Of a stretch of 64,000 bases of DNA, positions 32,618 to 64,000 are shown piece after piece (position 1 is the stretch's first letter; every line of letters starts with the position of its first letter). Location of the stretch: NCBI RefSeq assembly GCF_007997135.1, contig NZ_VORU01000010.1:62001-126000 (forward strand), written 5' to 3'. The stretch is from Aequorivita lipolytica (GTDB lineage: Bacteria > Bacteroidota > Bacteroidia > Flavobacteriales > Flavobacteriaceae). A program made the translations under genes and the position numbers. The notes below the pieces were generated by a model. The model saw only the letters and a program-made list of their open reading frames with translations. It was not told the DNA's origin and did no database searches.

Positions 32618-33807
32618 AGCATCGAAGCTATCGCCATTTTCATAGCTTCTGCCCTATCCCTAACCTGCTTTTCAGTCCAGCCAATTTTTATTAAGGAAGA
32701 AATCGTGCGGCTCATAATAGCATCACTTTTTGAAAAATCTGTATTGTTAAAATCCTGCATCTGGTTTTTCACTTCGGAAGAAAGATTTCCCAAGGATTTT
32801 AAATTTTTTAAATGCTCCCAGCCATTTATGTAGTGCCAGTTATTGGTGTACCAATAAAAACAGGCATCTACACCTGCTTCAGATAAAGCTTTGTGTGCTT
32901 TTTTGGTCAATTCCTCCGTAGGAAGGAAGAAATTTAGGAAGGAATAATTTTCCTCTCCGCCTTTAGGAACTCTTCTGAAAGTAACGCCTTCAATAGTTTC
33001 TAAAGTTTCACGAAGAATGGTGTAGTTTTCTTTCTGAATTTTTAAAATTCCATCCAACTTGTCCAATTGCGCCAAACCAACAGCAGCATTCAATTCAGAA
33101 ATTCTGAAATTATAGCCTAAAAAAGGGTGCGTTTCCGCCCCGCGATCATTGCCCACGTGGTCGTGGCCGTGGTCTTGGTAATGGTCTGCATTTAGTGCAT
33201 ATTTTTCATTATTGGTGATAACACCACCCCCTTCACCGCAGGTAATGGTTTTTACAAAATCGAAAGAAAAACAACCCAAATCGCCATAGCTTCCCAAAGG
33301 TTTTCCTTCGTAAGTTCCGCCAATGGCTTGGCAAGCATCTTCTAAAAGAATTAAATTATGTTTTTTGCATATTGCTTTCAAAGCTCTCAAATCTGCCATA
33401 GAGCCGCACATATGTACGGGCATTACGCATTTGGTTTTTGAAGTGATTGCTGCTTCCACAGCTTTTGGATCCAGCGTTAAAGTATCATCAATATCTACCA
33501 GAATTGGAATTGCGCCCAAAGCCAAAATAGATTCAAAACTCGCTACAAAGGTGAAGGTTGGCATTATAACCTCATCACCCGCGCCAATGCCTGCGGAAGC
33601 CAATGCAACCGTTAAAGCAGCTGTTCCGCTGGAAACTAGTTGGCAATATTCAGCACCCATTCGTTTAGCGAACGCTATTTCAAATTCTTTTGCTTTCCAG
33701 TGATTGTGGCGCATACCGTCAAAACCGTAGCGCATTAAAATGCCAGTTTCTAAAACGTCGTTTACTTGTTTGCGCTCTTCAGCGCCAAAAATTTCAAATC
33801 CGGGCAT
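32614..33807 (-). CDS. DegT/DnrJ/EryC1/StrS-family sugar aminotransferase, KdnA-like
   Basis: 397 residues. PLP Lys186 lies in FSFDFVKTITCGEGG and Asp157 in LLEDACQAIGG, both family-defining. The start MPGFEIFGAEERKQV and overall sequence recall KdnA, the 8-amino-3,8-dideoxy-octulosonate transaminase of Shewanella, but that assignment is from memory and weak. It acts on a keto-sugar nucleotide or similar substrate for surface glycans. It sits 6 kb from the polysaccharide locus and is convergent with ribB. Confidence 0.85.
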   Translation of the reverse strand: MPGFEIFGAEERKQVNDVLETGILMRYGFDGMRHNHWKAKEFEIAFAKRMGAEYCQLVSSGTAALTVALASAGIGAGDEVIMPTFTFVASFESILALGAIPILVDIDDTLTLDPKAVEAAITSKTKCVMPVHMCGSMADLRALKAICKKHNLILLEDACQAIGGTYEGKPLGSYGDLGCFSFDFVKTITCGEGGGVITNNEKYALNADHYQDHGHDHVGNDRGAETHPFLGYNFRISELNAAVGLAQLDKLDGILKIQKENYTILRETLETIEGVTFRRVPKGGEENYSFLNFFLPTEELTKKAHKALSEAGVDACFYWYTNNWHYINGWEHLKNLKSLGNLSSEVKNQMQDFNNTDFSKSDAIMSRTISSLIKIGWTEKQVRDRAEAMKMAIASML

Positions 33808-39925: not shown

Positions 39926-40010
39926 GGAGAAATGGCAGAGTGGTCGAATGCGGCAGTCTTGAAAACTGTTGAGGGTCACACCTCCGGGGGTTCGAATCCC
40001 TCTTTCTCCG
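39926..40010 (+). tRNA. tRNA-Ser, anticodon UGA
   Basis: The acceptor arms GGAGAAA and TTTCTCC pair over 7 bp; the anticodon loop CTTGAAA holds TGA inside the CAGT/ACTG stem; a long variable arm (type II, TTGAGGGTCACACCTC) and the T loop GGTTCGAATCC complete a serine tRNA of about 85 bases with a G discriminator. The genome does not encode CCA; the next bases are CAA. A perfect terminator follows. Confidence 0.95.
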
Positions 40011-40013
40011 CAA

Positions 40014-42628: not shown

Positions 42629-43395
42629 TATCGTGTAAGTAAAACTGTTACAGTTAAAACTAATGACAATATGGTCAAAAGAACGCCAACATTGCCCACT
42701 AGTCCAGCACTTTTAACTTTGGCCTCATTGGGATTTATTACTATAAAATCATTGGGTTTTATATAGAAATAAGGGGTATTGAACCAGTCTGTGCTGGTAA
42801 GGTCCAAATGCTGTATTTTGCGTATGCCATTTTCTTCCCTTATCAATAGTACATCTTTCCGTTCTCCATTTATTGTAAGATCTCCTGCAAAGCCAAGTGC
42901 CTGGGGAAGGGTAATATTCTGCTCTGTAAAGGAATAAGTGCCTGGTCTGGCCACTTCGCCCAATACGGTAACTTTCGCATTTAATATACGTACGCTTATG
43001 GTAGGCTCTTTTAGATGGCCTCCTTTTTCCAATAGTTCCTTTATTCCTTGCTCAAGTTCCTTTGTTGTTCTTTCCGCAACGTCAAGTGTGCCAAGCACAG
43101 GAAAAGTTATAGAACCATCCTCCCCTACCAAATAGCCCTGCAATTTTAGAAGATCAATATTGCTATTACCGGCAGAGCCTGCCACCGTTATATTGTAAGG
43201 CGCAGCGGTTTCCTGAACCAAGGCACTCACGGTGATGTTCAAAATGTCATTGGGTTGGATTTTTACAGGTTCATAATAGATTTCTTGGGGGATGTAATAA
43301 TCCGCATCCTGAAAATACAAAATCTCTTTTTTACTGGCGCACGAACTGAATACCAATACCAATGAAACTAAAATTAGAATATTTCTTTTTATCAT
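42628..43395 (-). CDS. Polysaccharide export lipoprotein (Wza-like)
   Basis: 255 residues. Lipobox FSSC (Cys19). A polysaccharide export (PES) domain begins at LQPNDILNITVSAL-like sequence (KIQPNDILNITVSALVQE) and is followed by a SLBB beta-grasp region (VTVLGEVARPGTYSFTEQNI). A hydrophobic C-terminal helix (GVLLTILSLVLTVTVLLT) probably crosses the outer membrane. It forms the outer-membrane channel for polysaccharide export together with the Wzc-like kinase downstream. Confidence 0.93.
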   Translation of the reverse strand: MIKRNILILVSLVLVFSSCASKKEILYFQDADYYIPQEIYYEPVKIQPNDILNITVSALVQETAAPYNITVAGSAGNSNIDLLKLQGYLVGEDGSITFPVLGTLDVAERTTKELEQGIKELLEKGGHLKEPTISVRILNAKVTVLGEVARPGTYSFTEQNITLPQALGFAGDLTINGERKDVLLIREENGIRKIQHLDLTSTDWFNTPYFYIKPNDFIVINPNEAKVKSAGLVGNVGVLLTILSLVLTVTVLLTR

Positions 43396-46198: not shown

Positions 46199-47191
46199 TT
46201 ATGGGGTGGCCATTTCTTTATAGATGTTTAAATATTGGCCCGCAATTTCCTTTAGGCTGAACCGTTTCACATTTTCTCTTCCCTTCTTAACCAACATTTC
46301 CCTAAGGTTTTCATTTTCAATAATATCTTTCAGGCCTTTTTCAATTTCATTTTCATCATAAGGATTTACAAGATAGGCACCTTCACCGGCAGCTTCAGCC
46401 ATTGCGCCAAAATCTGAGGTAAGTACAGGTCTCCCCACTTTTTGCGCTTCGATAATGGGCATCCCAAAACCTTCATAGGTTGAGGGGAAACATAACAAAT
46501 CACATTTTTCGTAGCATTCAACTATTTCACTAAAAGGGATATATGTTTTATTGGTATATTCAATTTTCAATTCTTTTAGTAGCTTTTGTTGTGCTTCAGA
46601 CAAATTACCTATAATCAAAACTTCACAATGGATGTTTTGGATCGCTTTCAACGAACATTCTAGGTTTTTGTTCGGTTTTGTGCCAATGAGCAAAATAATG
46701 GGTTTTTCCGAATTAAATACCTTCGGCTTAAAAGTAAACATTGGATTTACAGGATTATGGACTACGCTGATTTTATTTTTCGCAAAAGGAATTACTTTGG
46801 AAAGTTCCTTTTTTGTGAATTCCGAAATTACCGTAATCCGTTTTACAAACATTGCCGGAAGCCAATACCAAAGCAAAAGAATGTAAAAACGTCTAATGAT
46901 GTTGCCGTGAATGGCCGACTTTATATCGTGAACGGTCAGCACGGTGTTTTTGCCCGTGACTAGGGCCAGATAATTTACATCGCCGGTAATGTGGTTGATA
47001 TCGGTTTTGTTCGGGCTGAAACTTCTAATATTTTTTAAGATGGTACTTGGATCCCCGCCTGTGGCCGGCATTTCGGTTTTTTTTATGTGGCAGGTATTTA
47101 CAATTTCGTCTTGAAGGCTTTCAAAAAGCTCCTCAATACTGTTGTACTGTGGCAGGCGTTGGCGTGAGATGTAGTTTACTGTTTTATTCAT
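46199..47191 (-). CDS. Glycosyltransferase family 4
   Basis: 330 residues. Signature PSTYEGFGMPIIEAQKVGRP and a donor-binding LLIGTKPNKNLECSLKAI, plus an N-terminal NHITGDVNYLALVTGKNTVLTVHD acceptor-domain segment. Most like mannosyl/glucosyl-type GT4 enzymes, but the sugar is not known. It overlaps the Wzy-like gene by 8 bases. Confidence 0.92.
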   Translation of the reverse strand: MNKTVNYISRQRLPQYNSIEELFESLQDEIVNTCHIKKTEMPATGGDPSTILKNIRSFSPNKTDINHITGDVNYLALVTGKNTVLTVHDIKSAIHGNIIRRFYILLLWYWLPAMFVKRITVISEFTKKELSKVIPFAKNKISVVHNPVNPMFTFKPKVFNSEKPIILLIGTKPNKNLECSLKAIQNIHCEVLIIGNLSEAQQKLLKELKIEYTNKTYIPFSEIVECYEKCDLLCFPSTYEGFGMPIIEAQKVGRPVLTSDFGAMAEAAGEGAYLVNPYDENEIEKGLKDIIENENLREMLVKKGRENVKRFSLKEIAGQYLNIYKEMATP

Positions 47192-48452
47192 CGCTAAAAT
47201 GCCAGTTTAGAATATTCTTGCACACCCAAAAAAATAGAAATACGAGCAATAGTGATTTTACCATGTGGTTTAGCACTACTACCAGTTCCGTTTCGGCCTT
47301 TACCACCTGTAGCCAGAATAGCGGTATAAAAAATAAAATAAGTGGTTCCCTTACTACCCATTTTAGTATTAGCCTCCAAAATAAAATTAACACCACACCG
47401 AAAATTGCCATAAAAACAATACCACCGAACACACCGTAATTGGCGTAGGCCTCGCCCACAACGCTCATACCCATAGACGTTCCGCTGCTTAAATAGAGGC
47501 CTGTAAATTTTTCAAAGTTTTCCACCCCGCCGGCTTCTTCCTTGCCCGGAATCAGAAACCGGGGCAATATACTGGCATATACTGCATCAACAACCGTTTC
47601 ACCGTAGGCATAAGGTTCCTTTTCTGGGGTATACTTCATAATGGCGCTTATTATCCACCCTTGGTTCAAACGCACGTTCATTTCTCCTTGTTCCTCTTTG
47701 TCCTCTGTAAACCCACCGGATATCTTTCTTGTGAGAATATCAAAAAACAGCTCCAGCTTATTGCCGGAATACCCATTCCAGACTAATGTCCTGAAATCTG
47801 CCTTCACCAATTGAATGCCCGTAGCCAGTAAAAAACCCGAAACCATAATTATAAGGGTAGTCCTTATGGCCGGCTTTACCTTATAGGCCCAAAACATAAA
47901 AAAGAATGTTGACCAAAGAATAAAATCGTGGAATAGGGCAGACCTTATGGATTCTATGAAGAGAAAGAGAATTGCGGCGTAAAACAAATAACGGTGCCAT
48001 CTTTTATCTGAAAATAGTAAAATGAGCGCGCCTACATATTTAAAGTTTTCCAATAGGTAAAAAACAAAACTGAGACTGTCCGGCATTATTCTTTTGAGCA
48101 GCCCAAATGCGATGCCTAAAAGAAGAATGTAAACCCCAGCAGAGGAATAGCGCTGAAACAATCCTTCGTCGATATTTAATTTCGGCTCCTTATAAATTCC
48201 ATAAAACATGGCCAACGCGAGCACAAGGTATGCGGGCACTACATAGCCCACATAAATATCCTCGGGAATGTACATATGGTATTTAAAATGGGTAAAAGTA
48301 TTTTGATACTCTATAATGGGTCCAATAATCCACTGCATTCCGGCTATTAAAAGTAATAGTTCCAATATGGGAACGCGGTGCCCCAGTGCGGTTAAAAAGC
48401 GGAACCCCACGTATACAACAGCCAATATTCCTATTACAGACCAAAATTCCAT
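47184..48452 (-). CDS. Polytopic membrane protein, candidate O-antigen/capsule polymerase (Wzy-like)
   Basis: 422 residues with about 10-11 membrane helices and a longer periplasmic loop near 235-300 (KISGGFTEDKEEQGEMNVRLNQ). Sequence conservation of Wzy proteins is low, so the assignment rests on topology and place in a locus with a flippase, Wza-like and Wzc-like proteins. It is flanked by glycosyltransferases on both sides and is the only such protein in the visible cluster. Confidence 0.75.
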   Translation of the reverse strand: MEFWSVIGILAVVYVGFRFLTALGHRVPILELLLLIAGMQWIIGPIIEYQNTFTHFKYHMYIPEDIYVGYVVPAYLVLALAMFYGIYKEPKLNIDEGLFQRYSSAGVYILLLGIAFGLLKRIMPDSLSFVFYLLENFKYVGALILLFSDKRWHRYLFYAAILFLFIESIRSALFHDFILWSTFFFMFWAYKVKPAIRTTLIIMVSGFLLATGIQLVKADFRTLVWNGYSGNKLELFFDILTRKISGGFTEDKEEQGEMNVRLNQGWIISAIMKYTPEKEPYAYGETVVDAVYASILPRFLIPGKEEAGGVENFEKFTGLYLSSGTSMGMSVVGEAYANYGVFGGIVFMAIFGVVLILFWRLILKWVVREPLILFFIPLFWLQVVKAETELVVVLNHMVKSLLLVFLFFWVCKNILNWHFSDE

Positions 48453-52806: not shown

Positions 52807-53715
52807 TTAATCATTTTTGGCCATAAAATATAGGGCGAACATCTTGTTTATAAAATAGTCGTTTTGTTTTCCATCCGTGGCAATGATGTTTTTTTCCTTA
52901 AAATTTGCAAAACTCAAATGGTGGCCACCATTATAGTTCCATTTTTCACTCCCTTCCAAATAATTTTCACGATATAATTCTTCACTGTAATCTTTTTCAT
53001 CGAGCGCGTTAATTTTAAGAATATGCAGGCTTTTTCCATATTCCTCTGAACAATCTTGTGCCAATCTATAAAGCTGACCGTCGATTGAAACTACACCTCC
53101 CCCACATCTTTCATATTTCGCGTCAGTACATACTGGGTTTTGAGGATGCGGTCTCAGAGGTTGGGTTAGAATATCGGGTGTGAAAAATATATCCATACCT
53201 TTTTCTGAGGAAGTAAAAAGATACCACATTCCTTCAAGATATATTACGGAAGAGTCCCAATACCGACCATTAAGCAAAGTTTTAGATTTTTTAAGGCCGA
53301 ATGGGAAATCCTCAAATTTGTATAAACGTATATCCTGTGCGCTTGACGAATCGGGTATCATATAAGGTGAACCGTCTATTTCAAAAACAAAGGGGTACGC
53401 AAGATGGAAATCCTCTTTTAGAACAATCCCCAGATCAATAAAATTGTCAAGATCCTGCGTTTTGTAGGCTTTTATAAACCCAGCTTTTTTGATGGATTGC
53501 GATTCATAAAACAAATAAAGCCAATCGTTCTTGACAAAAAGAAATGGATCTGCGTTGGTGTGTACTTTTTCCTTCGTTGTCCTTAATTTTTTTATGTTGA
53601 AAACCTTGCTAGCATTCTTCAGGTTTACATCAAAATTGAATTTTTCATCCATTATGTAAACTCCCATACTCCAGAGCAATCCTTTTTTAAATAATTTTAT
53701 ATATTTCACTAACAT
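52807..53715 (-). CDS. Five-bladed propeller protein related to the GIPC-transferase N-terminal domain
   Basis: 302 residues. Repeats around HTNADPFLFVKNDWLYLFYE, AYPFVFEIDGSPYMIPDSSS, RYWDSSVIYLEGMWYLFTSS and NYNGGHHLSFANF give a five-bladed beta-propeller as in the N-terminal domain of glucosamine inositolphosphorylceramide transferase proteins. In those families it is usually fused to a formyl- or glycosyl-transferase; here it stands alone. It may bind or modify the glycan acceptor. No catalytic set is certain. Confidence 0.75.
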   Translation of the reverse strand: MLVKYIKLFKKGLLWSMGVYIMDEKFNFDVNLKNASKVFNIKKLRTTKEKVHTNADPFLFVKNDWLYLFYESQSIKKAGFIKAYKTQDLDNFIDLGIVLKEDFHLAYPFVFEIDGSPYMIPDSSSAQDIRLYKFEDFPFGLKKSKTLLNGRYWDSSVIYLEGMWYLFTSSEKGMDIFFTPDILTQPLRPHPQNPVCTDAKYERCGGGVVSIDGQLYRLAQDCSEEYGKSLHILKINALDEKDYSEELYRENYLEGSEKWNYNGGHHLSFANFKEKNIIATDGKQNDYFINKMFALYFMAKND

Positions 53716-53716
53716 T

Positions 53717-54862
53717 TTAGAGGAGTAATTTACTATTTGTTCCTTTAAAAAGGGTTACTAATTTTTCCGCCTTTATCGTATAGCTGTTCGCAAAGGCAAA
53801 ATTTCTTCTTTCATTAAAAGCTTCCTTTGAGTTTATTTCGCTCCAATTTTCCTTCTGTAGGCTAAAAAAAGTCGGAAATTCTGAATTATCAAATGTGGGA
53901 AGCATCGGGAATAATTTCAGGTCGTCATACATACTTATTCGGGTAGAAATTATTGGTTTACCGGTAGCCAAATATTCCAGGATTTTATGGGAATTGGAAC
54001 ATTTGTTTTTATCGCAATTATAGTCGTAACATATTAAAAATGCGTCTTGATTACGCAATTCTTCGGAAAGTGTTTTTGAGGAAACCATTCCGTGGAGGAC
54101 ACAATTTTCACTGTTCTTCAGAAAATCTACAAACGCTGTTGTGTCCTCGGAAACTGTACCGCCCAAATTATTTACCCCTTTTTGAAAAGCACCGTAAAAA
54201 TGGAACTCTATTTCAGGATTATTCTGTACTATGGCGGTAAGGTTGGCTTTGTCCAAAATTGGTCCTATCAGCAGATTGCCAACATATGCCACTTTTTCTA
54301 ATTTATTTTCCGGGTCAAAATGTTCAAGCTTGTTGCCTTCAATAAAATCTGGACTTAAACCGTGGTGAAGCACGGTTTTGTTTTTGGCATTCGAAAATGC
54401 TTCCAAGATTACTGGCGATATGGATACCAATTGGTCAAAACCTCTATATTCATTCCTGTACTCTTCATTTACTTGATCTGCCGGAAAAAAGATGGTTTTT
54501 TTACCTTTAAAATTGGAGAGATCAGTAAAAGCGCCATTGCAGTCGAAGGAAAGAACGTATTCAAAATCGGGATACTCCTTCAACCATTTTTTTACTTTAC
54601 TTTTTAGCACCGCATTATACAAAGACCTAAAATGAAACCTAAACCAATTTAGATTTTTTGAGATTGGGAATGAAATAAGCCTTATGTTTTTATGGTCTGG
54701 GCAAGCTTCGTCCTTTTTCGGAGATGAAGAAAAATTGACAGTCATAAAATATACGCTAAACCCCGCCTCTGCGAACGCCAAGGCATAGTGGTGCTTTGAA
54801 AGTTTGGAAATGCCCCAATCTTCCGGAGAGATTATAAGTATATTTTTATGCTTTTGGGCCAT
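53717..54862 (-). CDS. Glycosyltransferase, GT-B fold
   Basis: 381 residues. Opening ILIISPEDWGISKLSKHHYA, then KVAYVGNLLIGPILDKANL and CSNSHKILEYLATGKPIIST. The late motif places the ribose/phosphate contacts of the donor. It is of the GT1/GT4 type with an unknown sugar. It touches the amidotransferase gene upstream by one base. Confidence 0.88.
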   Translation of the reverse strand: MAQKHKNILIISPEDWGISKLSKHHYALAFAEAGFSVYFMTVNFSSSPKKDEACPDHKNIRLISFPISKNLNWFRFHFRSLYNAVLKSKVKKWLKEYPDFEYVLSFDCNGAFTDLSNFKGKKTIFFPADQVNEEYRNEYRGFDQLVSISPVILEAFSNAKNKTVLHHGLSPDFIEGNKLEHFDPENKLEKVAYVGNLLIGPILDKANLTAIVQNNPEIEFHFYGAFQKGVNNLGGTVSEDTTAFVDFLKNSENCVLHGMVSSKTLSEELRNQDAFLICYDYNCDKNKCSNSHKILEYLATGKPIISTRISMYDDLKLFPMLPTFDNSEFPTFFSLQKENWSEINSKEAFNERRNFAFANSYTIKAEKLVTLFKGTNSKLLL

Positions 54863-56028
54863 TATTTAAAGAGTTTGCGCAGACCGCTGGTTTTTTCCAA
54901 AAGCATTTTATATTTTCTTTTGTTTCCCTCATGTGTCCCGTAAAATTCGTGGGGGACGGGATGTTTTTTCATAATGTTTTCAAACTCTTGTGGGGAAAGA
55001 CCCAATTTTTTCAAAACATATTCGGTATCGTCGCTAAGTTCCTGAGCATCGTAAATCGGGGATTCCAGCGTTTTCATTGCTTCTTCCCTGCTTATTTGTC
55101 CGGAACAGATAAGGGTGCTTAAATGTGCCTTACGTTTGTCCACGCCAAATTTTGAGGGAAGAATGTAGTTTTGGTAGAATTTGGTCCAAAGGGATTCGCA
55201 ATGTTTCCCGCCGTAATCCCGCCAATCAAGCTTATCCGTAATAGTGGCAATAGCGTCTTTTTTATTGTAATCCACATAATCCAAAAGGGATATGGGAGTC
55301 AATTGTTGGAAACCGGTGTATTTAATGTATTTATAAAAAGGTACACGAGGGTAGGTTTTCAACTTAATGGTGCCGAATTTATCGTGAATGGATTTTAGGT
55401 TTGTATAGTCCAACTTTGGATAGATCCACGCCTGCGGCAAAATGAATTCCGTAACAATATTGGTTCCGCTGATGATGTAATTGATGTTGAACTGCGATGC
55501 CAATTTGAACATCGTGGCCTGTATGGCGTGGTCTGAAACCACTTCTATATCAATAACCGAAGCCTTTAAATAGGAAAGTTGCAGGTCGCGAAATTCTTCC
55601 CAATTCACAACAATGGTATGCAGATCGAAGCCCAGTTTTTCAATAATACTGTTCACGTTGTGGACGGCAAGTTCAGAATTCCAACCATTGTCAAAATGTA
55701 CCGCTAAAGGCCTAAGACCAAGTTCCTTAACAATATAGGCAACGTAAGTACTGTCCACGCCGCCACTGAGGCCAATAAGGCAGTCGTATTTTTTGCCCTT
55801 GCCGTTTTCCTTTATTTCGGCAACTATCTTTTCTAAAGCTTTTGAACGTGCAGGCTCTTTTAATAAATTTTTCTCGGCGGCCGCCTGATATTCAAAATAA
55901 TGATTGGAGATGCCATTTTCATCAAAACTTATATTTTCGTCAGTGGTATCCATTACTGTTTTTGTACACATTTGGTACGCCCTTTCGGAGAACAGGTCTG
56001 GATGGTATTTACTTGTTTTTATAATCAT
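54862..56028 (-). CDS. N-acetyl sugar amidotransferase (WbpG-like), zinc-knuckle cysteines largely lost
   Basis: 388 residues from the ATG at 56028, which overlaps the hisF stop as ATGA; the longer open frame to 56193 lies inside hisF and is not plausible. PP-loop SGGVDS (88-93) marks an ATP pyrophosphatase that activates the substrate for ammonia attack. Family members start with a CxxC...CxxC zinc ribbon; here the positions read C21-TK-T24 and S41-NH-Y44, so only one Cys is left. With HisH and HisF it should convert an N-acetyl group to an acetamidino group on a sugar nucleotide, as described for P. aeruginosa O5. Confidence 0.9.
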   Translation of the reverse strand: MIIKTSKYHPDLFSERAYQMCTKTVMDTTDENISFDENGISNHYFEYQAAAEKNLLKEPARSKALEKIVAEIKENGKGKKYDCLIGLSGGVDSTYVAYIVKELGLRPLAVHFDNGWNSELAVHNVNSIIEKLGFDLHTIVVNWEEFRDLQLSYLKASVIDIEVVSDHAIQATMFKLASQFNINYIISGTNIVTEFILPQAWIYPKLDYTNLKSIHDKFGTIKLKTYPRVPFYKYIKYTGFQQLTPISLLDYVDYNKKDAIATITDKLDWRDYGGKHCESLWTKFYQNYILPSKFGVDKRKAHLSTLICSGQISREEAMKTLESPIYDAQELSDDTEYVLKKLGLSPQEFENIMKKHPVPHEFYGTHEGNKRKYKMLLEKTSGLRKLFK

Positions 56029-56798
56029 AATTTTGAAAAAACTTCCTCGATCAATTGATTTTGTTTTGGGTAATTGATCATTATCCCCTTTTGTTCCGAA
56101 GCATATACAAACAGGCTTCCCGCCGCTACAGCAGATGCCCCGCCCTTTACAATTGCTTCGGTAATATCTGCTACTTTTGAAGCCCCGCCACAAGCCACCA
56201 CTGGTATTGAAACCGAATCTGCCACGAGTTTTATCAGTTCAATATCAAATCCTTTATAGGTGCCATCACGGTCAATTGATGTTAAAATTATTTCACCCGC
56301 ACCGGCCTCCTCAACCTTTTTAGCAAAATCCACAGGCGATAAATTTGTATTTTTTTTCCCGTTGTTCCGATAGACTTTATAATTGCCAAGCCAATCCTTT
56401 TTTACATCTATAGAAACCACGGCACTTTGACTGCCAAATTGTTCTGCTATTTGGGTTAATAATTTAGGATTGTCAAATGTGCTGGTATTTAAAATAACTT
56501 TTTCCGCTCCTTGATAGAGCAGTTTTTTTACCTGTTCAATGGTGGTAATGCCGCCGCCATAAGAGAGTGGCATAAAAGCTTCTCCCGCAATATCAGTTAA
56601 TTTTTCAATATTAGGCCCTCGGTTTTCCTTTGAAGCGGAAATGTCCAAAATAACAATTTCGTCCACTTCCTTTTCATTGAAGATTTTCACCGCGTTTATG
56701 GGGTCGCCAATATATTTATGGTCCTTGAATTTGATGGATTTTACCAAGCCACCATTCTGGATTAACAATACAGGTATGATACGAATACGCCTCATCAA
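56025..56798 (-). CDS. hisF: HisF-like subunit of the sugar amidotransferase complex
   Basis: 257 residues, TIM barrel. Phosphate and barrel motifs are normal (GGGITTIEQV, EIILTSIDRDGTYKGFD), and Asp130-equivalent lies in VVSIDVKK. But the first catalytic Asp of true HisF (CLDVKDG) is Leu12 in PVLLIQNGG, which should abolish imidazole cyclisation. The barrel therefore probably serves only to guide ammonia from HisH to the WbpG-like enzyme. It overlaps hisH by 4 bases and the amidotransferase by 4 bases. Not a histidine-operon gene. Confidence 0.93.
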   Translation of the reverse strand: MMRRIRIIPVLLIQNGGLVKSIKFKDHKYIGDPINAVKIFNEKEVDEIVILDISASKENRGPNIEKLTDIAGEAFMPLSYGGGITTIEQVKKLLYQGAEKVILNTSTFDNPKLLTQIAEQFGSQSAVVSIDVKKDWLGNYKVYRNNGKKNTNLSPVDFAKKVEEAGAGEIILTSIDRDGTYKGFDIELIKLVADSVSIPVVACGGASKVADITEAIVKGGASAVAAGSLFVYASEQKGIMINYPKQNQLIEEVFSKL

Positions 56799-57415
56799 TA
56801 ATTTTTTATGAAATTGCTTAACAGTTGCATTCCGTATTTGTGACTTTTTTCAGGGTGAAACTGCATCCCGATAATGTTTTCCTTTATAAACCCGGCGGTA
56901 AAACCGTAACCATATTTTGCGGTAACGGCAATATCTTCTGGATTGTCGCAGTCAATGTGATAGGTATGCACAAAATAAAAACGTGATTCCTCGGGCATAT
57001 CCGAAAAAAGCGGGGCGTGCTTTTTAAAACTGACCTCAGACCAGCCCATGTGAGGCACCTTTAAATTCTGGTCAAATTTTGAAGCGTCAAATTTTACGGT
57101 ATCGGCGGCAATCCATCCCAAGCCTTTTTGCGAACCTTCTTCGCTACCCCGGGTTAGCAATTGTGCGCCGAGGCAAATTCCCAAAATTGGAATTTTTTCC
57201 TGTAATACTTTCTTATTGAGAAGGTCCACCAGTCCCGAGGAATGCAACTTATCCATGCCATAATCAAAATGGCCCACGCCCGGCAAAATCAATTTTGAAG
57301 CATTTTCAATATCTTCATGTTTACCCGAGATCAATGCATCTGCGCATCCCACCTTTTTGAGCATTTTTTTTATGGAAGTGAGATTGCCCACTTCGTAATC
57401 TATGATTACTATCAT
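56795..57415 (-). CDS. hisH: HisH-like glutamine amidotransferase subunit
   Basis: 206 residues, class I glutaminase. Nucleophile Cys81 in GICLGAQ, with His187 and Glu189 in FHPEKS completing the triad. It hydrolyses glutamine and passes ammonia to HisF. Its context (AsnB upstream, HisF and WbpG-like downstream, glycosyltransferases around) shows it belongs to surface-sugar synthesis and not to histidine synthesis. 4-base overlaps at both ends. Confidence 0.94.
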   Translation of the reverse strand: MIVIIDYEVGNLTSIKKMLKKVGCADALISGKHEDIENASKLILPGVGHFDYGMDKLHSSGLVDLLNKKVLQEKIPILGICLGAQLLTRGSEEGSQKGLGWIAADTVKFDASKFDQNLKVPHMGWSEVSFKKHAPLFSDMPEESRFYFVHTYHIDCDNPEDIAVTAKYGYGFTAGFIKENIIGMQFHPEKSHKYGMQLLSNFIKNY

Positions 57416-59313
57416 GATACCTTTGCGTATTTTATTGACGGGTTTACGTTCAGTGACACATTAAATGCGCGCATCCAATGGTTCAGGCTTATTGCCTTGA
57501 AAAAAACATCGGCATAGGGCACATTCCCTTTTATGAAATTTTCATATTCATCGATTATATTTTCGTTTATGATGCCTTTCAAATTAAGCACCGCATCTTT
57601 AAGTTCTTTTTTAATAATTTCTGGGTTTTCCTTTATCCAAATAATGTCCGGGGCCACAAAGCCCATTTTATCGTATCTATGGATAATTTCTTCGGGAAGG
57701 TCGTCTTCCATCCCTTTTCTTAAAATTGCCTTGGTTATGCCGTTCCGGATTTTATAATCATCCGGCAGGGACAAACAGAATTCCACCAAACGATAATCTA
57801 AAAACGGCAATCGCGACTCCACTGAATGCATCATAGAATTCCGATCTTCGGAATGTAGCTGATAGGGTAAACTATAAGTAAGAAGCTCGTGTTTGGAAAG
57901 ATCCATTATATTTTTAATCTCCTCGGTGTTTCCCGGGTTGGTGGATTTAATGTGTGCATACTTATTTATGAAATCATCGTTAAAATAGGTTTTGGATTTG
58001 GACTTTTTGTTGAGAACCTTTTCTTTAAGATTTCCCAAAAACATAAAATTCGCAAACCGGTGTACATAAGATAATGTTGAAAGATGCTGCGACTTGCTTC
58101 GTTTTTGTATTTCTTTATAGAGCGTTGAAAATTTTCCATTCAAGAATAAATTTTTCCAAAAAAACATAAAAAACTCACCGTAGCCCGCCAAATATTCGTC
58201 AGCACCTTGGCCGTCCAACATTACGATTAGCTTATTCTCTGCCGCTGTTTCAAAAACTTTATATTCCGAAAAATGACTGGCGGAAAAAATGGGTTGATCC
58301 TGATGGTAGTTTATTTTTTCCAAAATGCCCCCTTCAATTAAATCATTCAAATCTGGATATACTTTGTGGGGATCGGAATTGATCTTTTTATTGACAAGAT
58401 CAGCGAACTGCTGTTCATCATAGCCTTCTTGGGTATAACAGGAGGTAACGGTATGGACTTTGCCCATTAGCGACCCGGCTATGCAAACAATTGAGGAACT
58501 ATCCAATCCCCCAGAAAGGCAGGAGCCCAATTTTACGTCCGACCGTAAACGAAGCGTAACGCTTTGGTTTAGCAGATCAACAAATTTGGAAGATGCATCG
58601 GTAAAAGTGATATCTTTTTTAGCTACTGGTTTAACCCTGTTTAAATAGTACCATTGTGTTTTGGTAAGGATAGACGTTTTAATATCGTAAACCATTTGGT
58701 GGCCTGCCTTTAGATTGAAAACATTTTGAAGGAAGGTGTTTTCGTCAGTATTCAAGTCGTTATTCACCAAGTATTTATAAACTATTTCTTTGTTTATTTG
58801 CGCATCAAAACCGGGAAGGTCCAAAAATTGTTTCACTTCGGAACCTATGTATAATGAATTGTTGATAAGGGTATAGCAGAAAGGCTTTATTCCAAAACGG
58901 TCCCTGCTGCAAAAAACAACTTGCTTTTTTTTATCGTACAGTACAAAAGACCACATTCCGTTGAAATGGTTTAGGCAATCCTGCCCCCAATGATCGTATG
59001 CCGCAAGGATTACCTCGGTATCTGTTTCGGAAGTGAAGGAGTATCCATGTTGCTTTAATTCGACCTTTAATTCTATGTAATTATAGATTTCACCATTATA
59101 AACAATCACGTAATCTTGGTAAGCCATAGGTTGATGGCCAGCACTGCTCAAATCCAAAATAGACAGTCTCCGGTGTCCCAAGCCAATATTACCGTCCACA
59201 AAAATACCGGAATCGTCGGGCCCGCGATGGATGATTCTATTGTTCATGGAATCAAGCAAATTAGGTTCGACAATGGTGTTGTCTTTATTTATTATGGCCG
59301 AGATTCCACACAT
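57412..59313 (-). CDS. asnB: Asparagine synthetase B-type amidotransferase
   Basis: 633 residues. The N-terminal glutaminase begins MCGISAI with nucleophile Cys2 and shows RGPDDSG and GEIYNY; the C-terminal synthetase has the PP-loop SCLSGGLDSSS and VMLDGQGADEYLAGYGE. In polysaccharide loci such proteins amidate a uronic acid carboxyl (uronamide), in addition to asparagine synthesis in general metabolism. The position in the middle of the sugar operon makes the former likely. It shares one base with the next acyltransferase gene. Confidence 0.93.
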   Translation of the reverse strand: MCGISAIINKDNTIVEPNLLDSMNNRIIHRGPDDSGIFVDGNIGLGHRRLSILDLSSAGHQPMAYQDYVIVYNGEIYNYIELKVELKQHGYSFTSETDTEVILAAYDHWGQDCLNHFNGMWSFVLYDKKKQVVFCSRDRFGIKPFCYTLINNSLYIGSEVKQFLDLPGFDAQINKEIVYKYLVNNDLNTDENTFLQNVFNLKAGHQMVYDIKTSILTKTQWYYLNRVKPVAKKDITFTDASSKFVDLLNQSVTLRLRSDVKLGSCLSGGLDSSSIVCIAGSLMGKVHTVTSCYTQEGYDEQQFADLVNKKINSDPHKVYPDLNDLIEGGILEKINYHQDQPIFSASHFSEYKVFETAAENKLIVMLDGQGADEYLAGYGEFFMFFWKNLFLNGKFSTLYKEIQKRSKSQHLSTLSYVHRFANFMFLGNLKEKVLNKKSKSKTYFNDDFINKYAHIKSTNPGNTEEIKNIMDLSKHELLTYSLPYQLHSEDRNSMMHSVESRLPFLDYRLVEFCLSLPDDYKIRNGITKAILRKGMEDDLPEEIIHRYDKMGFVAPDIIWIKENPEIIKKELKDAVLNLKGIINENIIDEYENFIKGNVPYADVFFKAISLNHWMRAFNVSLNVNPSIKYAKVS

Positions 59314-59966
59314 TATTTTAAATATTTTCTTTTGTACTGTTCAAATTTTTCTTTTTTGATGAAACCAATATACTCATTCTCATCCTTATATCTAATACAT
59401 TCCGAAGGATCCAAATCCCTCAGTTTTTTTGCGGGATTCCCTGCAATTACACAATGTCCTTCTGGAAAGGATCTGGTTACCACCGCCCCTGCGCCCACGA
59501 TTGTAAAATCTCCCAGTTCTACTTCGGGAAGAATCATAACATTCATTGCCACCAAGCAGTATTCCCCAATTTTAATGGGCTTGCACAGAGTATAATCCCG
59601 TAAATTGTATAGGTTATGTTTGGCACTTTGTATTCCCACGTTGGCTGATATTTGCGTATAGTCGCCAATTTCAATACCATTTTTGCCCTGTATGTAACAG
59701 CCCCGCATATAGCCGGGACAGGTATCCACACCAATTTTAATATTTTTAAAATATGCAATTTCACTGGAAGGATGAACGGGCCAATAAATAAATCTATGAC
59801 TGGAATTAAATAAAACCTGTCTTAACCAATGGGAAAACTTGATCTGTATTTCGGAGTTTTCAGTGCCTTTAATAAAATCAAAGTAGGGTATTGGCCTCAA
59901 TAGAAAATTGATTATTCTTTCTAGGTAATAAAAAAACTTGTTATAAATTTTGATCAGAAAAATCAT
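59313..59966 (-). CDS. Left-handed beta-helix acyltransferase
   Basis: 217 residues. Hexapeptide repeats: CYIQGKNGIEIGDYTQISAN, then the active-site region GIQSAKHNLYNL and VGAGAVVTRSFPEGHCVIAGNPAKKLRD. It is a soluble acetyl/acyl-transferase acting on a sugar nucleotide or lipid-linked sugar. A hydrophobic N-terminus (about 1-20) may anchor it. It follows a GT2 gene by 25 bases. Confidence 0.88.
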   Translation of the reverse strand: MIFLIKIYNKFFYYLERIINFLLRPIPYFDFIKGTENSEIQIKFSHWLRQVLFNSSHRFIYWPVHPSSEIAYFKNIKIGVDTCPGYMRGCYIQGKNGIEIGDYTQISANVGIQSAKHNLYNLRDYTLCKPIKIGEYCLVAMNVMILPEVELGDFTIVGAGAVVTRSFPEGHCVIAGNPAKKLRDLDPSECIRYKDENEYIGFIKKEKFEQYKRKYLK

Positions 59967-59991
59967 ATTTTAGATTTTTATTTATATTGGA

Positions 59992-60879
59992 TTAGGCAGG
60001 CAACATAAGTTTTCTATATAAAACATTATTCCAAGAAAGGCCACTTTCCTTTTGTAGCTCCAAACCTTTCTTTAAAGAATGATGCTTTATCGCGGAAATA
60101 ATGGACACAGCTTTCTCGTTTTGTAATTTATTTAAAATTATTTTCTTTTCGTCTTCATTTAGGGGGCAATTTTTTGATAAAATTAAAGCTTCCGTAATCA
60201 ATATGTATTTGAATGGTATAAAAGGATTCGTCATGTTGTCATTCATCTGTTGATCATCGTGTTCCCTGGACCAGATTAAAGCCCCTGGCATTAACACAAC
60301 CGGAAATCTCTGCGAAAGTTTATGCCATATCTCCACATCGCCAACGTGTTGTTTTCCGCTAAAACCATGAATGGCTTCAAATGATTTTCTATTTATTATA
60401 CTGGACATAGGCGCTTTGTGGAATATGGATTTTAAATCAAAGTAATGATATTTATAAGCCTCCGGAGGTGATAGTTGAAATGGATATATTTGATCCTCAT
60501 CCTGTATATCCAAACACAGTCCGTAACCCGCTTCAGGGAATTGCTCCATATAGTACACCATTTCCTCCAGTCCGTTGGGATACATCAAATCATCCGAATC
60601 CACGTACTTTAGGTATTTTCCCTTTGCATAACTTGCGGCTTTGTTTCTATTGGGGTAATCGCCTAAATTATTTTCATTGATATATACTTTAATCCTGTTG
60701 TCCTGTGCTTCATATTGGCGTGCAATTTTTACGGAAGCATCATTGGAACCATCATCCACGATGATCAATTCCCAATTTTTAAAGGTTGATTTTATAACAC
60801 TTTCAATAGCTTGGGCCACATATTTTTCCCTATTATATACTGTCATCAATACTGAAACCAAGGGTGCATTATTTTCCAT
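59992..60879 (-). CDS. Glycosyltransferase family 2
   Basis: 295 residues. Opening SVLMTVYNREKYVAQAIESV, ELIIVDDGSNDASVKIA, the DxD-type KYVDSDDLMYPNG and later GFSGKQHVGDVEIWHKLSQR. GT-A inverting enzyme of unknown donor. Its 5' end overlaps the next GT4 gene by 11 bases. Confidence 0.93.
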   Translation of the reverse strand: MENNAPLVSVLMTVYNREKYVAQAIESVIKSTFKNWELIIVDDGSNDASVKIARQYEAQDNRIKVYINENNLGDYPNRNKAASYAKGKYLKYVDSDDLMYPNGLEEMVYYMEQFPEAGYGLCLDIQDEDQIYPFQLSPPEAYKYHYFDLKSIFHKAPMSSIINRKSFEAIHGFSGKQHVGDVEIWHKLSQRFPVVLMPGALIWSREHDDQQMNDNMTNPFIPFKYILITEALILSKNCPLNEDEKKIILNKLQNEKAVSIISAIKHHSLKKGLELQKESGLSWNNVLYRKLMLPA

Positions 60880-62038
60880 ATATATTTTTTAAGTTGTTAA
60901 TTCTATTTGCAAGTGTAAAAGGCAAAAAATTCATAAGATTGTAATTTTTGGTTTTCATGAAAGCATGTGGTTTTGTGTTAATAAATACATCTTCATAAGC
61001 TTTTGTCTGTATATATGGTTTGAACATTGATTCCGCTTTGCTGATGCATTTATGGCTTATTACTGCCATTTCGTCTCTATTATTGTCCAGATATTTAATG
61101 AATTTTCCATATTTTTCAATTTCGTCCAAGGGTACGGTATAACCTGTAACCCCATCCTCTATAAGTTCTGGGATGCCGCTTTTTAAGTTGGTCGCTATTG
61201 GGATAACGCCACATTTCATGGCCTCAACAATTGAAACCGGTAAGCCTTCGCCATACGAAGGTAAAATTAAAATATCGTGTTCACTATGCAGTGAAATAAC
61301 TTCTTGATTCGTCAATTTGCCCTTAAAATTTACATTGGAAAAGGATTGTAGTTCCTTCATTAATTTTTCCTCCAAGGGCCCAGCTCCAATAATGTTGAAT
61401 ATAAAATTAATTTTAAGTTCTGTCAATTGGGTCAGAATATTCTTAAAAAGCAATACTCCTTTATCTTCAATTAAAGCACCCACAAAAGCCACCCGAATTA
61501 TTTTGGCTCTAACTTTTTCTTTATCATTATCTATGGTTAAGGGAACTGGAAATTTCACACTTACCACATCAATTTTTGAAAATGTGTCTTTGTTTTCGAA
61601 ATTGGATTCAATCTTTTCCATCAGATAATCGCTCACCGTAATTATAGTATCAATCAAATGGCCCTGTTCATTGATACAGTTAAAGTAATGATCATAGTCT
61701 CCGTGCATAATATATACCACAGGGATTGTAAAATTAAGATTATTGACAACTTCCAGTTCAATCCCGCCATCGTTGGATATTAAAATAGAATTGTTATCAA
61801 GATGCCTTTTTATCTTATTCATTACACCCTGTTTACTCGACCATTTTCCATTATAGTTTATTCTAATAATTTCATCCGCGTTAAACTCATCTTGAACCCT
61901 CAACAAGGGATCGTCCATTGTATTATGGATCAACACTACTTTGGCTTTACATCTATTGGTTCTAAACCTCAACAAATTTCTAACCACGGATGCTACCCCT
62001 CCATCCTTATCCGGCAATATATAGACTAAGTTTTTCAT
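60869..62038 (-). CDS. Glycosyltransferase family 4
   Basis: 389 residues. N-terminal ILPDKDGGVASVVRNLL, donor-site RVAFVGALIEDKGVLLFKNI and the E-x7-E signature GEGLPVSIVEAMKCGVIP with ELIEDGVTGYTVP. GT-B retaining enzyme; sugar unknown. It lies 102 bases after the flippase gene on the same strand, the largest gap in this part of the operon. Confidence 0.94.
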   Translation of the reverse strand: MKNLVYILPDKDGGVASVVRNLLRFRTNRCKAKVVLIHNTMDDPLLRVQDEFNADEIIRINYNGKWSSKQGVMNKIKRHLDNNSILISNDGGIELEVVNNLNFTIPVVYIMHGDYDHYFNCINEQGHLIDTIITVSDYLMEKIESNFENKDTFSKIDVVSVKFPVPLTIDNDKEKVRAKIIRVAFVGALIEDKGVLLFKNILTQLTELKINFIFNIIGAGPLEEKLMKELQSFSNVNFKGKLTNQEVISLHSEHDILILPSYGEGLPVSIVEAMKCGVIPIATNLKSGIPELIEDGVTGYTVPLDEIEKYGKFIKYLDNNRDEMAVISHKCISKAESMFKPYIQTKAYEDVFINTKPHAFMKTKNYNLMNFLPFTLANRINNLKNIYGK

Positions 62039-62140
62039 ATGGGTTTTGGCAAAAATTAAAGTATGCTGAATGTTTCTCCAGAATTGAAAATTATAAAAAC
62101 ATTACTATACCCATCAAACTTAATATATGAATGCGTTTTT

Positions 62141-63613
62141 TTATGATTGCAAACGTTTTTTTCTTTCAAGATAAGTGTTTTTTAAAATTTTTAGTAAATC
62201 CATAAATTCTGTGAAGCCCTTGGTTTTCGCAACAATATTTATTAAAAAATAACAAAGTATATAAATAGATGACTTTATGGCAATTAGCAGGAAATGATTA
62301 AATTCCATTTCCGGCATCAAGAATTCTATTATCATAACAATTATAAAGGGTATAAAATATGTTAGAAAAAGTTTCATGAATGAACCTATTTTAAAGTCAA
62401 AAAACCTTCTTAACAAGACCAAGTTAAAATACATTCCTATTATAGCCGCAGCAATGGTTGCAATTATATAGGCGTACAGACCATAATATATGGCAACCGG
62501 GATTGCCAAAAGATATAGTGCCTTTTTGATAATTTCTACTTTAAGATTTGCTCCAGACTTTCCGATGCTCAATACCGGTGTCACTAAGATGGTTGGTATA
62601 GTATGTATAAATGTGAACAACCCCAAGATTTGAAAAATAGGCACACTACCAAGCCATTTTTCGGTAAACAATAGAACGATGATAGATTTGGCGTTGATCA
62701 CCGCCAATCCAGAAAAAAGAAAAGTGGTGAAACAAACCACATGTAAAACTCTTATTAAAGCATCCCGTAACCTTTTATTGTCATCCGCAATTTTTGAAAA
62801 AGAGGGAAATAGCACCCCAGAAATCGATGAGAAAGCAAATGTGAAAACTAGATTATCCAAAGACTGAGCTTTGTAGAACAGACCTAATGTGGATGCGGAA
62901 AATAGCTTTCCGATAATAATGGTATCAAGCTTATTGAATACAGAATCAATAAATATGCTCAAGGAGTATTTGTAGCCAAAATTCCAAAGTTCCTTCACTT
63001 GTTTTATATCAAACAAAAAACTAGGTTTCCAAGGTGAAAAATACCAGATTAATATGGTGCCAATAACCCATCCGGATATTTGGGAGTATATCAAACTATA
63101 TACGCCAAAGCCCGTATATGCCAAATAAATTCCCACACCTCCTGAAATAAATCCGGAAACCAGTTCAATTTTAAAAGGGGTTTTAAAATCCAGCTTCTTC
63201 TGGAAAAGCGCATTTTGCAACGTAGAAAGCCCTTTAATTAAAAATGTCAAGGACATTAACTGTGTTATTGGCTTTAATTGGGGCATTTCAAAATAAACCG
63301 CAACCCAGGATGCGGAAAAAAACATAGCCACGCCTAGCAAGGCGGCCATCAACATATTTATCCAAAAAACTGTTGAAAGCTGTGTTTTGTTTACTCGCTG
63401 CTTTTGAATGATGGCATTCCCAAAGCCAAAATCCACAAAAGAATCTGTAAGACTTGCAAACACCATGGCCAAGCCCAAGAGACCAAAATCCTCCGGAAAT
63501 AACAAACGCGCCAAAATGGTGGAAACCACAAAATTCCGGAACTGACCTACCATTATTTTGGTAAAATTCCAACTTGCGGCATTTAGAGTCGAACTTTTGA
63601 GATCTTTCTTCAA
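62141..63613 (-). CDS. MOP-superfamily polysaccharide flippase (Wzx/WzxC-like)
   Basis: 490 residues with about 12-14 membrane helices. The N-terminus NAASWNFTKIMVGQFRNFV and the repeated LARLLFPEDFGLLGLAMVF are typical of the WzxC/RfbX flippases. It should move the undecaprenyl-linked repeat unit across the inner membrane. It is the most upstream complete gene of the visible operon; an AT-rich gap of about 200 bases separates it from the cut acetyltransferase. Confidence 0.93.
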   Translation of the reverse strand: MKKDLKSSTLNAASWNFTKIMVGQFRNFVVSTILARLLFPEDFGLLGLAMVFASLTDSFVDFGFGNAIIQKQRVNKTQLSTVFWINMLMAALLGVAMFFSASWVAVYFEMPQLKPITQLMSLTFLIKGLSTLQNALFQKKLDFKTPFKIELVSGFISGGVGIYLAYTGFGVYSLIYSQISGWVIGTILIWYFSPWKPSFLFDIKQVKELWNFGYKYSLSIFIDSVFNKLDTIIIGKLFSASTLGLFYKAQSLDNLVFTFAFSSISGVLFPSFSKIADDNKRLRDALIRVLHVVCFTTFLFSGLAVINAKSIIVLLFTEKWLGSVPIFQILGLFTFIHTIPTILVTPVLSIGKSGANLKVEIIKKALYLLAIPVAIYYGLYAYIIATIAAAIIGMYFNLVLLRRFFDFKIGSFMKLFLTYFIPFIIVMIIEFLMPEMEFNHFLLIAIKSSIYILCYFLINIVAKTKGFTEFMDLLKILKNTYLERKKRLQS

Positions 63614-63821
63614 AAAAAATTATTTAGTCTTATTTTGATTTATTGTAAAACCTCTTGTGAACAAAGTCCTATGTATATATTATAATATTTTATAAATATA
63701 TATATGTACTAAATTCTTACTTGGAAAAGTTTCATGGGTAACCTAGGCACATACTCAATAGGTATTATCACTGATAATCTTTGCAAGAAAACCCAATATT
63801 TTTTCCACTGTAAATTCAATA

Positions 63822-64000
63822 TTAGATTTCCCTTACGATATCGTTTTCCAACTTATAATTTTTTTTACTCTGGTCACAAACTGCAAGCCCTTCTTTATCA
63901 AAACGCAATCTGTTTCCTGCCTTGCTTACCCATCCAATCTGTTTGGCGGGATTGCCCACTACCAAACAATAATCGGGAATATCTTTTAAGACTACTGCCC
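63822..64000 (-). CDS. WbpD/WlbB-like N-acetyltransferase, only the C-terminus in the window
   Basis: The frame enters at 64000 and ends at a TAA (63822-63824). Visible: AVVLKDIPDYCLVVGNPAKQ then IGWVSKAGNRLRFDKEGLAV, ending NDIVREI. The hexapeptide end GNPAKQIGW plus the RFDKEGLAVCDQS tail is the pattern I know from WbpD/WlbB, which N-acetylates the 3-amino group of UDP-2-acetamido-3-amino-2,3-dideoxy-glucuronate. The rest of the pathway (dehydrogenase, aminotransferase, epimerase) should lie past the right edge. Confidence 0.75.
   Translation of the reverse strand, partial: AVVLKDIPDYCLVVGNPAKQIGWVSKAGNRLRFDKEGLAVCDQSKKNYKLENDIVREI

Follow-up and report, generated by a model that had tools for sequence, protein, structure and literature searches.

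Which nitrogen-modified sugar is built by a set of minus-strand genes at the end of a 64,000-nucleotide stretch of Aequorivita lipolytica DNA? This stretch, referred to here as the window, covers bases 62001-126000 of contig C1 (131,654 bases), in a genome of 3.31 Mb, 47 contigs and 99.78% completeness. An earlier note on the window had read its genes for WbpG-, HisH-, HisF-, AsnB- and WbpD-like proteins as a single operon for the acetamidino diamino uronic acid of Pseudomonas aeruginosa O5, with a uronamide as a possible second modification. We give a probability of roughly 0.55 to the reading that the glycan contains an amidinated 2,3-diamino uronic acid, that AsnB most likely amidates a hexuronic carboxylate of the same glycan, and that the genes belong to a Wzx/Wzy-type surface polysaccharide locus from 40259 to about 68750. 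Coordinates are on the scale of the window. Labels beginning with C denote contigs of this genome, L the loci read, and G the genomes compared; phylum, family and genus are the groups defined by the genome collection searched.

The amidine genes and the predicted pathway

The genes for WbpG, HisF, HisH and AsnB are all on the minus strand and overlap each other, and each product passes the cut-off of a curated NCBIfam model, in agreement with the earlier assignments. They encode a WbpG/WbuX N-acetyl sugar amidotransferase of 388 residues (54862-56028; TIGR03573, 302.1 bits, cut-off 203.2), a HisF2 protein of the AglZ/WbuZ type (56025-56795; NF038364, 361.4 bits, cut-off 310), a HisH2 glutaminase (56795-57415; TIGR01855, 222.9 bits, cut-off 105.4), and an AsnB-type glutamine-dependent amidotransferase of 633 residues (57412-59313; TIGR01536, 453.4 bits, cut-off 267.1, with PF00733 and PF13537 also over their cut-offs). 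From the acyltransferase gene AcT (59313-59966) through the glycosyltransferase-like gene GTb (53717-54862), all junctions are head-to-tail overlaps of 1 nt (AcT/AsnB, HisH/HisF and WbpG/GTb) or 4 nt (AsnB/HisH and HisF/WbpG). A single transcript is not established by these overlaps: farther upstream, WbpD and Wzx are 208 bp apart, and another 102 bp separate Wzx from the gene that follows it.

The open reading frame listed for WbpG begins at 56193 and runs into HisF; the ATG at 56028 is the likelier start. WbpG keeps the PP-loop SGGVDS, so that both the profile score and the SGGxDS motif place it in TIGR03573. Loss of the Asp residue in the PCLD motif is typical of the AglZ/HisF2 family. In a pairwise alignment with the HisF of the same genome, HisF2 has PVLL in place of PCLD, a change of Asp to Leu, and it belongs to this family by both score and residue. 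HisH2 retains the cysteine of GICLG and the histidine and glutamate of QFHPE, as aligned with the genome's own copy. We take these residues, and the Asp of PCLD, to be catalytic. Misread histidine-biosynthesis genes are ruled out, as the HisA, HisF and HisH genes for histidine synthesis are located on C2, and the copies in the window are therefore extra.

The name WbpD-like fits only a gene that is truncated at the edge of the window (63822-64394, minus strand, of which 63822-64000 is in the window). It encodes 190 residues and matches the solved structure 3mqg with an E value of 4.9e-62, presumably the WbpD-type enzyme WlbB. The wbpB gene is found directly upstream, past base 64000 (64387-65349, equivalent to L007:887-1849). 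It overlaps wbpD by 8 bases and matches solved WbpB (3oa2) with an E value of 2.5e-107. By these two matches the pair belongs to the UDP-GlcNAc3NAcA pathway. The hexapeptide gene inside the window, AcT (minus strand), is not a second WbpD. It reaches no curated NCBIfam cut-off (the best is WbbJ, 57.5 of 243 bits), and its best solved relatives are of the putative acetyltransferase/galactoside O-acetyltransferase kind, with E values of about 1e-12. It resembles WbbJ and the maltose/galactoside acetyltransferases, and is perhaps an O-acetyltransferase.

Among the matches listed, the nearest relatives of WbpB are from a Lutibacter metagenome-assembled genome (85% identity), then from Crocinitomix and several Campylobacterota records (81-83%). 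None of the 27 other same-genus genomes searched, three of which are less than 90% complete, has a match at E ≤ 1e-40. On account of these distant relatives and this absence, WbpB was probably acquired by transfer.

The genes suggest the following scheme. An unlinked WbpA-type dehydrogenase would oxidize UDP-GlcNAc to UDP-GlcNAcA, WbpB and an unlinked WbpE-type aminotransferase would place an amine on C-3, and WbpD would acetylate this amine to give UDP-GlcNAc3NAcA. HisH2 would release ammonia from glutamine, and HisF2, which has probably lost its cyclase function, would channel it to WbpG. WbpG would activate an N-acetyl carbonyl with ATP, giving the acetamidine. GTb is the best candidate for transfer of the amidinated residue. 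AsnB would most likely convert the carboxylate of a hexuronic acid in the same glycan to the amide. If this scheme is correct, the surface-glycan chemistry can be predicted from the genes: an amidinated diamino uronic acid, L-fucose (from gmd and fcl) and perhaps an amide.

The P. aeruginosa O5 set for ManNAc3NAmA consists of WbpA/B/D/E/I with WbpG/HisH2/HisF2. As in O5, homologs of WbpB, WbpD, WbpG, HisH2 and HisF2 are located in one cluster here. Unlike in O5, no WbpI was found, WbpA and WbpE are present as unlinked candidates only, and AsnB is added. Since no WbpI was found, the product probably has the gluco configuration. Of the O5-type product proposed in the earlier note, the amidinated 2,3-diamino uronic acid therefore stands as likely, with a scheme that fits as far as UDP-GlcNAc3NAcA and its amidination, but its manno epimer ManNAc3NAmA is unsupported, and the genes do not establish the double modification.

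Relatives of the module

WbuX enzymes are common, with one over the cut-off in 9 of 299 genomes at the family level and 54 of 395 at the phylum level (this genome included). All the other over-cut-off places of both scans were read with their surroundings, giving 66 loci, some of which end at contig ends. Three types of neighborhood were seen repeatedly, with nonulosonate genes, with genes for FnlA-like proteins and epimerases (the L-FucNAm arrangement), or with genes for Wbp proteins or their paralogs. These labels come from BLAST against chosen reference proteins and were partly named by eye, with those of the window locus, L136, L229 and L239 set by hand.

In a tree of 83 WbpG rows (four of 87 were left out as fused, truncated or not WbuX), all but one of the 29 nonulosonate rows (28) fall in one superclade, which has 33 rows in total. 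The window WbpG is positioned outside this superclade and outside the L-FucNAm-type clade. It belongs to a clade of nine rows (support 96), with L070 as its sister (support 100). Four rows of the clade are labeled 'Gnn', three 'Wbp' (the window included) and two other, so that seven of the nine are labeled as having WbpB/WbpD or a WbpB paralog nearby. The 'Gnn' label, presumably tied to GnnA/GnnB, denotes a lower-identity WbpB-like protein, which is accompanied by WbpD- and WbpE-like genes in L219, L220 and L236 and is alone in L237.

The sister locus L070, in a genome of another genus (G225), has homologs of WbpD (63% identity), WbpB (65%), AcT (44%), HisH (76%), HisF (74%), WbpG (77%) and GTb (55%). 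GTb has matches in only three of 146 loci (L070, L220 and L223), all within the WbpG clade of the window. The Wzy-like protein has relatives in L277 (46%), L220 (27%) and L223 (46%). Matches to it, to the glycosyltransferase at 49554, to a protein at 48454 with no Pfam match, and to the gmd and fcl products are located on the same contigs of G225, G675 and G338; two of those in G675 are weak (21% and 27%). HisH-HisF-WbpG, GTb, the Wzy-like protein and gmd/fcl thus recur in three other genomes. In L220 (from G675), an AsnB protein with 44% identity to that of the window is encoded next to HisH, and a lower-identity WbpB/WbpD/WbpE-like trio stays with the module. In L223 (from G338), WbpG has 54% and GTb 31% identity, NeuB-, NeuC- and NeuA-like genes are present, and no match to AsnB or to wbpB/wbpD was found within the 48 kb read.

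The HisH-HisF-WbpG-GTb core is shared with these three genomes, with AsnB and WbpB/WbpD variable around it. The window and L070, and L220 and L223, would be natural pairs for testing the sugar specificity of WbuX enzymes, about which little is known according to the accessible text of PMC10607449.

Zinc motif, unlinked steps and the identity of the sugar

Several of the observations in this section weigh against the reading given above. The tetra-cysteine zinc motif of WbpG is degenerate, with the first Cys alone kept and three of the four lost. NASAT enzymes are described with this motif conserved, in the part of PMC10607449 available, and the window WbpG departs from that description. The motif pattern missed 20 of the 83 WbpG rows; three of these have four Cys residues at another spacing, and 17 are degenerate (the window included), six of them labeled Fnl. 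The motif is therefore not universal among TIGR03573 members, and the membership of WbpG is based on the curated profile. Several WbuX lineages may not need the zinc site.

Past base 64000, where wbpA and wbpE were to be sought, neither is linked to the locus, and both are present only as candidates elsewhere in the genome (C18 and C27). The best WbpA candidate is a TviB-like dehydrogenase on C18, which scores 539.6 bits against the model for the UDP-GlcNAc dehydrogenase TviB, below its cut-off of 592. It adjoins a gene read by eye as a TviC-like epimerase. Among the loci of the best 80 of 570 confirmed WbpB relatives, a sample of close relatives, 25 of the 28 dehydrogenases directly beside WbpB are of this TviB class, a point in favor of the reading. 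A WecB/WecC-like pair is present on C24.

Five full-length proteins are found among 12 matches to DegT-family aminotransferases in the genome. The best candidate for WbpE is on C27 (L027:11537-12694). It matches solved WbpE with an E value of 5.8e-92, and entry 7b0d scores slightly higher. This gene is found in all 28 same-genus genomes (this one included), with 82-94% identity in the other 27, and thus belongs to the core of the genus whether WbpB is there or not. As 27 of its 28 carriers have no WbpB match (E ≤ 1e-40), it is not specific and has another or an additional role. The aminotransferase encoded at 32614-33807 was rejected as a candidate for WbpE. It matches models of the LegC/PseC type without reaching their cut-offs, and is presumably the 8-amino-3-deoxy-D-manno-octulosonic acid aminotransferase (KdnA). 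For the 41 WbpB loci flanked by 8 kb or more on each side, drawn from the best 80 of 570, a WbpE-type gene is located within 8 kb of WbpB in 4 of 15 Flavobacteriales loci versus 22 of 26 others (Fisher p = 0.0005). This correlation is consistent with a core WbpE-type enzyme that possibly supplies the Flavobacteriales WbpB loci in trans.

The third gene to be sought there, wbpI, was not found in any of the 47 contigs. There is a single Epimerase_2 protein over the cut-off, with a second match below it, and this protein is of the WecB type (E values of 9.4e-138 to 1f6d versus 2.1e-40 to 8sxv). The O5 pathway to ManNAc3NAmA thus lacks its epimerase here. The absence may be due to an assembly gap, as such enzymes are unlinked in other genomes. 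G225 has an unlinked WbpI-type epimerase with 64% identity to that encoded next to WbpB in the Lutibacter locus L080, and more distant WbpI-like epimerases (35-44%) are located on other contigs in G675 and G341. In the same search, G152 has the WecB type alone and the single-contig G329 has no match. The missing epimerase also counts in favor of the reading, as the synthesis of L-FucNAc likewise requires an Epimerase_2 enzyme (FnlC).

A separate observation was made for G152 (L068:15530-19900), where WbpB, WbpE and WbpD are encoded directly beside WecC and WecB, with no other Epimerase_2 match. In this organism, UDP-ManNAcA might be the substrate that receives the 3-amino group, with epimerization before amination.

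Further points against the reading come from the relatives and from the profile scores. The closest relative, L070, has no AsnB. GTb (minus strand, group 1 glycosyltransferase-like; PF00534, 19.7 of 26.4 bits) and the tentative Wzy polymerase (47184-48452, minus strand; PF14296, 15.2 of 26.6 bits) score under their Pfam cut-offs. Moreover, given the Neu genes and the missing wbpB/wbpD of L223, the WbpG subclade of the window is not bound to diamino uronate. In favor of the reading, a nonulosonate substrate is ruled out for this genome, in which NeuB has no match.

The amidine could instead be formed on a different N-acetyl sugar, such as GalNAcA through the TviB/TviC-like pair on C18 or ManNAcA through WecB/WecC on C24, with WbpB and WbpD making another residue of this glycan that is left unmodified. 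We consider this a minor possibility, but one to be taken seriously. Both gene pairs are at hand in the genome, and L223 has the WbpG-GTb pair without wbpB/wbpD. In addition, WbuX-family enzymes are reported for FucNAm as well as ManNAc3NAmA in the text available of PMC10607449, and L-GalNAmA stands beside GlcNAc3NAcylAN in Vibrio vulnificus YJ016 (PMC3210612, in part). On the other hand, wbpB and wbpD accompany the module in L070, as does the WbpB/WbpD/WbpE-like trio in L220, which favors the diamino uronic acid as the amidinated sugar.

AsnB and the surrounding locus

AsnB begins with MCG, has an SGGLDSS loop, and contains glutaminase and synthase domains. TIGR03108, the family to which P. 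aeruginosa WbpS and Escherichia coli WbqG are assigned, gives 377.2 of 816.9 bits, so its cut-off is not reached. In Porphyromonas gingivalis, the Wbp linking sugar lost its uronamide on deletion of the asnB-like PGN_1234 (WbpS), and asnB adjoins wbpE and wzx in several species (PMC7468200, as far as its text is available, for the family and for these observations). The AsnB of Tannerella forsythia has instead been suggested, in the accessible part of a paper on this species, for the acetamidino group of pseudaminic acid. With HisH, HisF and WbpG already present for the acetamidino task, the uronamide role is the better guess here, and a uronamide synthase is a plausible assignment.

Alternatively, AsnB could be an ordinary asparagine synthetase, or a second supplier of ammonia, with no uronamide role. 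Its best NCBIfam model is TIGR01536 (asn_synth_AEB) rather than TIGR03108, and there are four full-size AsnB proteins in the genome. However, a separate AsnB of 555 residues is encoded on C30, close to the size of the E. coli AsnB chain (553 residues), and HisH2 is already there to feed WbpG. In a tree, the window AsnB also groups with those from further polysaccharide loci (support 90), with L220 as its sister (support 99). This alternative is unlikely. The tree has long branches, and the pair of the window and L220 alone is firm. AsnB proteins show little clustering by context; all labels together are as low in 13 of 200 shuffles, and single labels are not.

Among 77 amidine modules, AsnB is found within 8 kb in 8 of 13 diamino, 3 of 11 Fnl, 4 of 24 other and 2 of 29 nonulosonate modules. 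The diamino set includes the hand-placed L229 and L239, where WbpB is just beyond 8 kb, and counts L221 and L224 twice; L227 and L228, with FnlA-like and weak WbpB-like matches, are assigned to Fnl, and row 12782 of L240 was left out of the 78 WbpG rows. Counted per locus, the diamino figure is 6 of 11, or 4 of 9 without the hand-placed loci. AsnB is near 5 of 36 WbpB loci without HisH/HisF, and the diamino set differs from these with p = 0.011, or p = 0.063 without the hand-placed loci. Without these loci, the comparison with the nonulosonate set gives p = 0.020, counted as modules and not as loci. Among WbpB loci with full flanks and HisH/HisF, AsnB is present in one of five. These numbers are only suggestive of an enrichment of AsnB near diamino amidine modules.

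AsnB-HisH-HisF-WbpG might even be a joint double-amidation block. It would put an acetamidine and a C-6 amide on the same 2,3-diamino-2,3-dideoxy-glucuronic acid without 2-epimerization, so that an acidic residue would become cationic, and the same block would be carried by L220 and by Pontibacter anaerobius (L136). In these two loci AsnB is beside HisH or one gene away. We regard this proposal as doubtful.

The P. gingivalis Wbp/Vim pathway with WbpS resembles the present locus in having an AsnB-type amidotransferase alongside the Wbp route to a uronic acid. In contrast, its product is the linking sugar of type IX secretion, 2-N-seryl, 3-N-acetylglucuronamide, and acetamidino groups are not mentioned in the accessible text of PMC7468200; the present locus has amidine genes, a flippase and glycosyltransferases. 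WbpB and WbpD could nonetheless serve such a linking sugar here, with AsnB as its WbpS and the amidine genes as mere neighbors, since the genome has 84 matches to the type IX C-terminal domain TIGR04183. This is very improbable. The surroundings are those of a Wzx/Wzc locus with fcl and gmd, and WbpB is not a general type IX secretion gene of the genus, as it has no match (E ≤ 1e-40) in the 27 other same-genus genomes searched, where type IX secretion is assumed.

The likeness to Sphingomonas sp. LM7, of another phylum, lies in gene content. Its cluster B has an NDP-sugar dehydrogenase, an 'amidotransferase, exosortase associated', a pyridoxal phosphate aminotransferase, a WxcM-family acetyltransferase, an MviM-family dehydrogenase, WbuX, HisF2 and HisH in one locus, with the aminotransferase and dehydrogenase linked, unlike here. 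Transposon insertions in this locus affect colony morphology (PMC11340318, from the portion available). We infer that the LM7 amidotransferase is AsnB/WbpS-like. The V. vulnificus YJ016 O-polysaccharide is known as a structure, with a 2,3-diamino glucuronamide (GlcNAc3NAcylAN) and an acetimidoyl uronic acid (L-GalNAmA) in one repeat, and an acetamidino-acetamido galacturonic acid is known from P. rubra (review PMC3210612, in the text accessible). An amide and an amidine in one repeat are thus already known, and the chemistry and genes of this cluster are of known kinds. Among the open-license papers listed, no title was found on the combination of an acetamidino group and an AsnB-type gene in Flavobacteriales.

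The co-directional minus-strand block extends for about 28 kb; the Wzc-like gene lies at one end (40259) and a WecA-like gene at the other (near 68750). A Wzc-like protein (AAA_31 over its Pfam cut-off, the Wzz domain below) and a Wza-like export protein (40259-43395, minus strand) are encoded at the end opposite the amidine genes. A Wzx-type flippase (62141-63613, minus strand; PF13440, 276.1 bits) is encoded downstream of wbpD. Upstream of wbpD the order is wbpB, fcl (467.7 bits, cut-off 500), gmd (599.1 bits, cut-off 415) and the WecA-like gene (up to 68747; 165.9 bits, cut-off 326), followed by the contig end. The last 900 bases of C1 beyond this gene have no listed open reading frame of at least 80 residues.

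Two further features were observed. A protein encoded at 52807-53715, within the cluster, has a GINT1_N domain (155 bits), a model named after glucosamine inositolphosphorylceramide transferase 1, with a single match among the 146 loci (L149). A tRNA-Ser(TGA) gene is located on the plus strand (39926-40011), just outside the Wzc end of the cluster, and is a possible insertion site.

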